Positions 30,892 through 35,068 of a stretch of DNA of 64,000 nucleotides are shown piece by piece. Position 1 is the first letter of the stretch; the number at the start of each line of letters is the position of its first letter. The stretch is from positions 1-64,000 of the forward strand of contig JAAZNF010000072.1 in NCBI GenBank assembly GCA_012798435.1. Direction: 5' to 3'. Both the position numbers and the translations under genes were made by a program. The stretch is from Myxococcales bacterium (GTDB lineage Bacteria; Myxococcota; B64-G9). The notes beneath the pieces were generated by a model. It searched no databases, had not been told where the DNA came from, and was given only the letters and a program-made list of their open reading frames with translations.

Positions 30892-30962
30892 TGGGGGATC
30901 GTCTAACGGCAGGACATCAGACTCTGGATCTGACTATCAAGGTTCGAATCCTTGTCCCCCAG
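30892..30962 (+). tRNA. tRNA-Gln(CUG)
   Basis: 71-nt cloverleaf. The acceptor stem TGGGGGA pairs with TCCCCCA, with discriminator G. The anticodon stem TCAGA/TCTGA has loop CTCTGGA, giving anticodon CTG. The T-arm contains GGTTCGAATCC. The 3' CCA is not encoded. It begins one base after the preceding stop codon and is followed by a terminator and then by glnS, whose product charges this tRNA. Confidence 0.95.
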
Positions 30963-30966
30963 TGAA

Positions 30967-30996
30967 AACCCCGCGCCCAGGCGCGGGGTTTTTTTT
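30967..30996 (+). terminator. Rho-independent terminator after tRNA-Gln
   Basis: The 11-bp stem AACCCCGCGCC / GGCGCGGGGTT (effective loop a few nt at CA) is followed by T residues to 30996, five nt after the tRNA. Confidence 0.92.
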
Positions 30997-31066
30997 CGTT
31001 TCGCGGTTGATTTTCGGGCCGCCGCGTGGCAACCTTCGCGCCGCCGAGCGAACCCAGGAGCGCGCC

Positions 31067-32764
<1,698 letters not shown>

Positions 32765-32790
32765 CCTCACCTGGCGCTCGGGAGGCCATC

Positions 32791-33264
32791 ATGGCTCGTG
32801 TTCAAGTCGACACGCCGGCACCGGATTTCGAGCTCTGCGACGCCCAGGGCCGGGTGGTGCGCCTGAGCGACTTCCGGGGAAAGCGCCACATCCTGCTGAT
32901 CTTCAACCGGGGCTTTGGCTGACCCTTCTGCCGCCGGCATATGTCGCAGTTGCGACATGACTACCAGCGTTTTGTAGAGCTCGATACCGAGGTCGTCGTG
33001 GTCGGCCCGGAGAGCGCCGACCGGTTCAGGAGCTACTGGGAGAAGCACAAACTTCCCTTTGTGGGCCTTCCCGATCCCACTCACACGGTGCTCAAGCGCT
33101 TTGGACAAGAGGTCAAGATCTTCAAGCTCGGCCGGATGCCCGCCCAGGTGATGGTCGACAAGAGCGGAAAGGCCCGGTACGTTCATTACGGTCATTCCAT
33201 GGCGGACATTCCAGACAACCAAGAACTCCTGTCGCTTCTGTTGCAGATGAATCAGAAGGGCTGA
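32791..33264 (+). CDS. Selenocysteine-containing peroxiredoxin-like protein (UGA = Sec44)
   Basis: 157 residues when the in-frame TGA at 32920-32922 is read as selenocysteine. A thioredoxin-fold AhpC/TSA-like domain starts VDTPAPDFELCDAQGR and LSDFRGKRHILLIFNRGFG. The active site is then Sec-Pro-Phe-Cys (Sec44, Cys47), continuing CRRHMSQLRHDYQRF and EVVVVGPESADRF, LPFVGLPDPTH and KLGRMPAQVMVDKSGK. Homologues carry CPFC at this position. A hairpin at 32941-32958, with its loop 25 nt after the UGA, fits a bacterial SECIS. GGGAGG precedes the ATG at 32791. Predicted role: thiol-dependent peroxide reduction. Standard gene callers would split it into 43- and 107-residue pieces. SelA/B/C/D are not in the window. 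Confidence 0.88.
32941..32958 (+). promoter_or_regulatory. Bacterial SECIS-like hairpin
   Basis: The 7-bp stem ATGTCGC / GCGACAT with apical loop AGTT (G at loop position 2) begins 18 nt after the UGA at 32920-32922. Bacterial SECIS elements lie inside the coding region just 3' of the Sec codon, with the loop about 16-37 nt away; here the distance is 25 nt. Confidence 0.75.
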
Positions 33265-33303: not shown

Positions 33304-33332
33304 TTGACACCCGGCCAGCGCGGGGGAATAAT
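33304..33332 (+). promoter_or_regulatory. Consensus sigma-70-type promoter for the Hsp70-like gene
   Basis: TTGACA (33304-33309), 17 nt, AATAAT (33327-33332), 26 nt upstream of the ATG at 33359. The match is 6/6 and 5/6. No CIRCE or sigma-32-like pattern is seen. Confidence 0.75.
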
Positions 33333-33358: not shown

Positions 33359-35068
33359 ATGAGCGCGGAGAGCGGGATGGACTTCGACAGGCTGCCGGAA
33401 GGGGTGGAGCTCCCCCCGTCGAACCTGCCCAAGAGCAAGCACATCATGGGCATCGACCTGGGGACGACGTACTCCTGCGTCTCGGTGGTGCTGGACGACT
33501 TTCCCAAGGTCATCCCTTCGCGCAAGGGCCTGCGCACCACCCCCTCCATCGTGGCCCTGGACGAGAAGGGGCGGCTCCTGGTGGGCGAGGACGCGCGCAA
33601 GCAGCTCCTCATCAACCCCACCAACACCATCTACGGCGCCAAGCGCTTCATCGGGCGGCACTTCTACTCCGAGGAAGTCTCGGTCCTGGCCAAGTACTTC
33701 AGCTACCAGGTGGTGCCCATCGGCGACATGGCGGTGGGGGCCAAGATCGGCGATCGCGTCTTTTCGCTGCCCCAGGTCTCTGCGCTCATCCTCAACGAGC
33801 TTCGGCGCAACGTGTGCGAGTACCTCAAGGAGAACGTCACCCAGGCGGTGGTCAGCGTCCCGGCCTACTACACCGAGAACCAGCGCGAGGCGGTGCGCCA
33901 GGCGGGGGCCATCGCCGGCATCGACGTGGTGCGCATCATCAACGAGCCCACCGCGGCCGCGCTGGCCTATGGCCTCAACAAGGACTACGACAAGAAGATC
34001 CTGGTGTACGATCTGGGCGGCGGCACCTTCGACGCCTCGGTGTTGGAGCTGTTCGAAAACGTCTTTCGCGTCATCGCCACCGGCGGCGACACCTTCCTGG
34101 GCGGCGTGGACTTCGATGACCGGGTGGTGCAGTTCATCCTCAGCGAGTACGAGCGCACCACCGGCGAGATCCTGCAGTGCGACAACGTCATCACCCAGCG
34201 GCTCAAGGACGCGGCCGAACGGGCCAAGATCGAGCTGTCGGCCAAGACCCACACCACCATCGACCTGCCGTACATCACCATCTCCCATGGCAAGTTCAAG
34301 GACTTCCGCACCGATCTCACCCGCGAGCAGTTCGAGTCGCTGATCGAGGACCTGGTGGATCGCGCCTCCGAGGTGTGCATGGAGGTGCTGGACGCGGCCA
34401 ACCTCAGTCCCGACAAGCTCGATTCCATCATCCTGGTGGGCGGCCAGACGCGCAGCCCGCTGGTGGTGGAGCGGGTGACGCAGGTCTTCGGCAAGGCTCC
34501 CACCAAGGGCGTCCACCCCGACGAGGCGGTGGCTTGTGGCGCGGCGCTCATGGCCCACTCGCTGCTCTCCAACAAGAGCGTGCGACTCATCGACGTGCTG
34601 CCCATGAGCATCGGCGGGCGCCAGCCGGACGGGGCCTTCAAGGTGTTGTTCGAGGCCAACAGCCCCCTGCCCGCCGAGCGCGAGGTGGGGGTGACCACCA
34701 CCCACGACGAACAACAGGCCATCGAGGTGTTCCTATACCAGGGCGAGGCGGCGCGCTGCGTGGAGAACGAGTTTCTCGGCGCCTTCGTGATCACCGGCTT
34801 CGCCAAGGCCCCGCGCGGCAAGATCCGCCTCAAGGTGAAACTCTCGCTCGACAGCGAGTCCATCCTGGAGGTCTCGGCCCAAGCGGTGGACACCGGCGAG
34901 CCCATGCACGTGCAGATGGTGGCCCGTTCACCAGTGGCCGCGGAGGACATCGGCCTCGAACCCACCGGCCCCGCCCCGGCCGGGCCGCCTCAGCTGGCCC
35001 CCACCGCTACGGGAAAGCAAAGAAGATTCTCCGGCCTGCGTCATTTTTTACGAAGGATCTCGGGCTGA
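33359..35068 (+). CDS. Hsp70/DnaK-family protein lacking the full C-terminal lid
   Basis: 569 residues against about 610-640 for DnaK. A 28-residue N-terminal extension precedes a complete ATPase domain: phosphate 1 GIDLGTTYSCVSVV, connect 1 INEPTAAALAYG, phosphate 2 VYDLGGGTFDAS and adenosine motif LVGGQTRSP. The substrate-binding beta domain follows (about 415-530; VLPMSIGGRQPDG, NSPLPAERE). The helical lid is replaced by a Pro/Ala linker and a basic tail (GKQRRFSGLRHFLRRIS). It is a paralogue rather than the housekeeping DnaK: no grpE or dnaJ is adjacent. GGGAGG lies upstream of the start. It faces the 1370-residue outer-membrane gene. Confidence 0.9.
   Translation: MSAESGMDFDRLPEGVELPPSNLPKSKHIMGIDLGTTYSCVSVVLDDFPKVIPSRKGLRTTPSIVALDEKGRLLVGEDARKQLLINPTNTIYGAKRFIGRHFYSEEVSVLAKYFSYQVVPIGDMAVGAKIGDRVFSLPQVSALILNELRRNVCEYLKENVTQAVVSVPAYYTENQREAVRQAGAIAGIDVVRIINEPTAAALAYGLNKDYDKKILVYDLGGGTFDASVLELFENVFRVIATGGDTFLGGVDFDDRVVQFILSEYERTTGEILQCDNVITQRLKDAAERAKIELSAKTHTTIDLPYITISHGKFKDFRTDLTREQFESLIEDLVDRASEVCMEVLDAANLSPDKLDSIILVGGQTRSPLVVERVTQVFGKAPTKGVHPDEAVACGAALMAHSLLSNKSVRLIDVLPMSIGGRQPDGAFKVLFEANSPLPAEREVGVTTTHDEQQAIEVFLYQGEAARCVENEFLGAFVITGFAKAPRGKIRLKVKLSLDSESILEVSAQAVDTGEPMHVQMVARSPVAAEDIGLEPTGPAPAGPPQLAPTATGKQRRFSGLRHFLRRISG

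Follow-up and report, generated by a model that had tools for sequence, protein, structure and literature searches.

At positions 32791–33264 of the window (the whole 64,000-nucleotide stretch of DNA analysed), a reading frame is interrupted by TGA at 32920–32922. This raises the question of whether the gene is broken, or whether it is intact and the UGA is read as selenocysteine (Sec). The features involved are the following.

32780–32785, + strand: Shine-Dalgarno sequence GGGAGG, 5 nt upstream of ATG 32791
32791–33264, + strand: predicted selenoprotein gene of 157 codons plus stop, with UGA codon 44 as Sec; Prx-like (AhpC/TSA fold)
32920–32922, + strand: in-frame UGA, Sec44 of Sec-Pro-Phe-Cys47 (orthologue column U 34/36, C 2/36)
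32929–32931, + strand: codon of Cys47, the presumed resolving Cys (Thr in the orthologue of genome G007)
32941–32958, + strand: bacterial SECIS hairpin by published criteria, with a 7-bp stem and the loop AGUU (G second in the loop)
33262–33264, + strand: genuine UGA stop of the selenoprotein gene, read from the sequence

The frame contains no internal stop besides this TGA. Read through, it gives an AhpC/TSA-type protein of 157 residues. The Pfam model PF00578 (AhpC-TSA) matched the read-through protein at residues 6–130 (E 2.3e-22) and therefore spans the UGA. The Redoxin model also matched across the UGA (7.2e-21), and no NCBIfam model scored above its own cut-off. An initial annotation had joined the two same-frame pieces at the TGA into one protein, and both the single frame and the domain across the UGA agree with it. 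Standard annotation would instead cut the gene into a stub of 43 residues and a 107-residue ORF that lacks its head. Elsewhere UGA is an ordinary stop, which ends 19 of the 26 long ORFs in the window as well as the selenoprotein gene, so the recoding at codon 44 is local. The apparently broken gene is very probably intact, and UGA 32920 is almost certainly read as selenocysteine.

The assembly that holds the window is a draft (5.05 Mb in 129 contigs, 97% complete, 1.5% contamination; the window lies on contig C124). The genome search found SelA (3.7e-128), SelD (1.6e-106) and SelB (1.3e-80), the last a protein of about 650 aa with an EF-Tu GTPase and two C-terminal SelB winged-helix domains. 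A tRNA-Sec of 98 nt with the anticodon UCA was also detected (75.6 bits). The four genes sit on four different contigs. The same genome encodes a second selenoprotein, FdhA, whose in-frame UGA lies in HCARLUHSSTVAGL (G000 contig C75:26384–28390, L112), at the place expected from established knowledge of FdhA. A strong hairpin with the loop GGUCU follows this UGA. The initial annotation had proposed that the organism decodes UGA as Sec, and had named the absence of selB or selC as evidence against it; both are present, and the rest of the system was found with them.

Conservation of the UGA was examined in 36 aligned orthologues from at least three phyla. Column 44, read residue by residue, holds U in 34 and C in two. 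L077, L092 and L097 had been missed by a regular-expression motif scan, and direct reading of their translations gave U too. The earlier statement that the UGA aligns with the Cys of homologues was borne out, with the UGA-versus-Cys contrast drawn from two Cys sequences only. R40, P45, P73, D95, G114, P117 and I140 are invariant in all 36 sequences, and column 47 holds C in 35, the remaining sequence having T. In G007, a genome of the same family as the window genome, the motif (L023/L056) is UPFT instead of UPFC, i.e. Sec without a resolving Cys.

A scan of public genomes found a UGA form with 66% identity in Anaerolineales (L052), and the two Cys forms, both with a TGC codon, in Chthonomonas (L053) and Leptolinea (L054). 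Among 195 genomes of the window's own phylum, clear orthologues (E ≤7e-42) occur in four, including the window genome, and each has exactly one TGA. Matches at E ~1e-21 and above in this phylum were other AhpC/TSA paralogues and were left out of the orthologue set. In the Anaerolineales phylum (400 genomes), TGA is present in 49 of the best 50 places (E ≤7e-43); annotation is likely to miss about 50 UGA-bearing places in this phylum. An extra TAG or TAA was seen inside the matched stretch in L091 (G397) and in places in G460 and G387. In L091 it coincides with the final residue of the match and is probably the true stop.

The presence of tRNA-Sec was also compared. In the Anaerolineales phylum, a tRNA-Sec above the cut-off was found in 41/41 tested genomes with the UGA form, versus 12/20 without the gene (hypergeometric p ~4e-5, kinship ignored). 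The UGA-form genomes G195, G007 and G122 have it as well. No tRNA-Sec scored above the cut-off in the UGA-form genome G188, which is represented by an 86%-complete assembly of about 1,290 contigs; the hairpin letters are conserved at its locus (L055). One of the two Cys-form genomes has a tRNA-Sec and the other does not.

Downstream of the UGA, AUGUCGC (32941–32947) and GCGACAU (32952–32958) form a stem that closes the AGUU loop (32948–32951). The stem starts 18 nt and the loop 25 nt from the UGA. The bSECIS model asks for a loop of 3–9 nt, a stem of 4–16 bp, a G at loop position 1 or 2, a UGA-to-loop distance of 16–37 nt and an MFE of at most −7.5 kcal/mol (PMC13188914). The hairpin lies within all of these limits, with a 4-nt loop whose G at position 2 is followed by U, a 7-bp stem and an MFE of −14.0 kcal/mol (42 nt). 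Its z-score was −2.70, and 2 of 200 shuffled sequences folded as stably.

Covariation was scored in the 21 orthologues that share the hairpin register of the window. In this alignment 90.5% of the cells pair, the outermost pair being formed in only 7/21. Two-sided changes were found at three stem pairs, including G-C/C-G, G-C/U-A/A-U and C-G/A-U. The covariation score was 0.190. Shuffles gave 0.092 and 0/500 reached 0.190, a count not to be read as a probability because the 21 sequences are related; slid registers gave no more than 0.066. The Leu codon in the loop is UUG in 21/21 orthologues, and UUG makes up 7.5% of the Leu codons in the window. The hairpin is absent from both Cys homologues. 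The initial annotation had described a 7-bp hairpin with a loop G 25 nt downstream; this distance is that from UGA to loop, and the published limits and the covariation both uphold the description.

Other arrangements of the hairpin were observed among the homologues. In a sister subgroup (L089, L090, L093–L095, L098–L100 and L103) it lies a few nt further upstream as GCGCGC-AGUUG-GCGCGC, a natural register shift that retains AGUU. In L023/L056 (G007) it is nearer the UGA and has the loop GUU. L029 (G011), a more distant homologue, carries RGTWUPNC and a possible hairpin CUCGCGC-AGUU-GCGCGAG with the same loop motif, and is another candidate Prx-like selenoprotein. The covarying and register-shifted hairpins make a natural series useful for testing what SelB reads.

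Other explanations of the TGA were weighed against these results. A pseudogene with a nonsense mutation, or a Cys codon miscalled in sequencing or assembly, would be compatible with a draft assembly and with TGC at the same place in two homologues. However, the UGA stands in the same column in 34/36 orthologues from independent genomes. In addition, the part after the UGA is conserved like the part before it (75/113 versus 27/43 residues identical to L052), with third codon positions the most variable. The conserved UGA thus refutes an error or pseudogene in practice, and this origin of the TGA is extremely improbable; TGC or TGT as the true codon at 32920 is very unlikely because the same UGA is present in over 30 independent genomes. 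There is likewise hardly any chance that translation truly ends at the UGA and that the part beyond it forms a gene of its own. An internal ATG at 32941, 18 nt past the UGA, does open the 107-residue ORF, but no ribosome-binding site was found in the sequence upstream of it, and CTG replaces it in the orthologues L055 and L057. The product would have neither the strands at the N-terminus nor the redox motif, and the Pfam domain runs across the UGA. Genome-wide reassignment of UGA to Cys or Trp, or read-through by a near-cognate tRNA, would fit the Cys at the codon-44 position in the Cys homologues. UGA nevertheless terminates most long ORFs of the window and the selenoprotein gene itself, and the genome has a complete Sec system with tRNA-Sec(UCA), which makes this explanation scarcely credible.

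In conclusion, the frame, the UGA/Cys conservation, the SECIS covariation and the machinery together make us nearly certain that Sec would be inserted at UGA 32920. The whole explanation, i.e. a selenoprotein gene with UGA-to-Sec decoding via SECIS and a Prx-like redox product, is very likely correct. Translation would initiate at 32791, SelB on the downstream AGUU-loop hairpin would bring Sec-tRNA(UCA) to UGA 32920, and elongation would proceed to UGA 33262 to give a thioredoxin-fold, Prx-like product.

The genes and signals around the locus are the following.

30962–32764, + strand: glnS, class I Glu/Gln-tRNA synthetase (Pfam tRNA-synt_1c), ending 26 nt before the selenoprotein start
33304–33332, + strand: promoter-like TTGACA-17-AATAAT, a sigma-70-type consensus match only (11/12), 26 nt upstream of an Hsp70-like gene

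Translation of glnS probably begins within this ORF, at about 31070. The 26-nt same-strand gap between glnS and the selenoprotein gene holds neither a terminator nor a promoter match. The initial annotation had proposed co-transcription of the two, which is plausible from this gap. The promoter-like match suggests that the Hsp70-like gene downstream (33359–35068) may be a separate transcription unit. No conserved operon partner was found at L052, L075 or the family glnS loci; no Prx was seen beside glnS in related genomes, and no glnS beside Prx in the relatives examined. In the gene tree, the window sequence falls within an 11-row clade of Anaerolineales-phylum sequences (99/94), apart from the same-family genome G007. 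This tree, which has some long branches, suggests lateral exchange with Chloroflexota. Misplacement of the contig would be a formal alternative to lateral transfer; the glnS on the contig matches same-family glnS at 61–65%.

To place the product among known redox proteins, its structure was predicted with AlphaFold from four sequences (the window protein and related loci, with Cys written for Sec). The model (pLDDT 86.2, pTM 0.84) has a peroxiredoxin (thioredoxin-like) fold. Residue 44 directly precedes its first long helix, 45–63. The best structural matches were BCP/PrxQ and AhpE peroxiredoxins (TM ~0.85), with ResA slightly lower. The roles of the residues in the Prx motif PxxxTxxC are established. 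When aligned with SsBcp1, Sec44 falls on the Thr of this motif and Cys47 on the peroxidatic position. The full signature, PxxxTxxC plus Arg, was not found in the 36 orthologues, which have the invariant Arg40 at the Pro, Sec44 at the Thr and the variable residue 119 at the Arg. The protein combines UxxC, not TxxU, with a PF00578 match, and UxxC forms are treated as Prx-like thiol:disulfide oxidoreductases (PMC1088965, PMC1794560). Residue 44 rather than 47 appears to be the invariant nucleophile, since one orthologue is without Cys47.

A true peroxidase, i.e. a peroxiredoxin rather than a thiol:disulfide oxidoreductase, is a possible but doubtful reading of this protein. It is favoured by the top structural matches and by the alignment of Cys47 and U44 with TxxC, and Sec is intrinsically good at reducing peroxide. 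The loss of the Prx motif and its Arg, the orthologue with Thr for Cys47, the match to ResA-type oxidoreductases and the published classing of UxxC forms argue against it. We consider a thioredoxin-like thiol:disulfide (or broadly thiol-dependent) redox role rather more probable than a classical peroxiredoxin role. The selenolate of Sec44, located where the first long helix begins, would most likely attack a disulfide or a peroxide; the selenenylsulfide may next be resolved by Cys47, and the Sec44/Cys47 site would be regenerated by a thiol reductant of the cell. The term peroxiredoxin in the initial annotation thus stands as far as the fold, PF00578 and the known Prx-like selenoprotein class are concerned, but not for the Prx motif; judged by these residues, it appears a loose label, and "Prx-like thiol:disulfide oxidoreductase" seems to fit better.

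The find adds a firmly supported selenoprotein and is convincing but ordinary; its main interest is the clean SECIS series and an apparently laterally spread, Sec-dominant subgroup. Our literature search returned nothing specific to the Chloroflexota RGFxUP[FY]C subgroup. We propose, as a speculation, that the sequences with RGFxUP[FY]C, LGRMPA and HYGxSMxDIP might form a distinct, Sec-dominant redox family that has its centre in Chloroflexota and has spread laterally; its substrate would differ from the substrates of known Prx-like proteins, and two SECIS registers, a few nt apart, would both be kept around a fixed apical AGUU.

Judged by motif and PF00578, the gene is a further member of a known selenoprotein class. 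The UxxC class with PF00578 is called 'Prx-like' in PMC1088965 and 'Prx-like 1' in PMC2398784, and is listed with WP_010940744.1 in PMC13188914. The class and the window protein share PF00578, a single UxxC at the thioredoxin-like position, a SECIS just downstream and Cys homologues. The window protein differs in belonging to a well-bounded subgroup, marked by the three motifs above, that is mostly Sec and not mostly Cys. The TxxU Sec-peroxiredoxins have the same fold and Pfam family, but in the window protein Sec is at the Thr position, three residues before the peroxidatic one, and none of the Prx residues Pro, Thr and Arg is present. The best NCBIfam match of the window protein is the SelL-related redox protein (NF040769; 5e-23, residues 9–105), but its 81.6 bits are below the curated cut-off of 120, and the residues past 105 are unmatched. 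BCP/PrxQ, AhpE and ResA resemble the window protein in predicted fold (TM 0.70–0.86), but they have another active-site motif, no Sec and about 20–27% identity.
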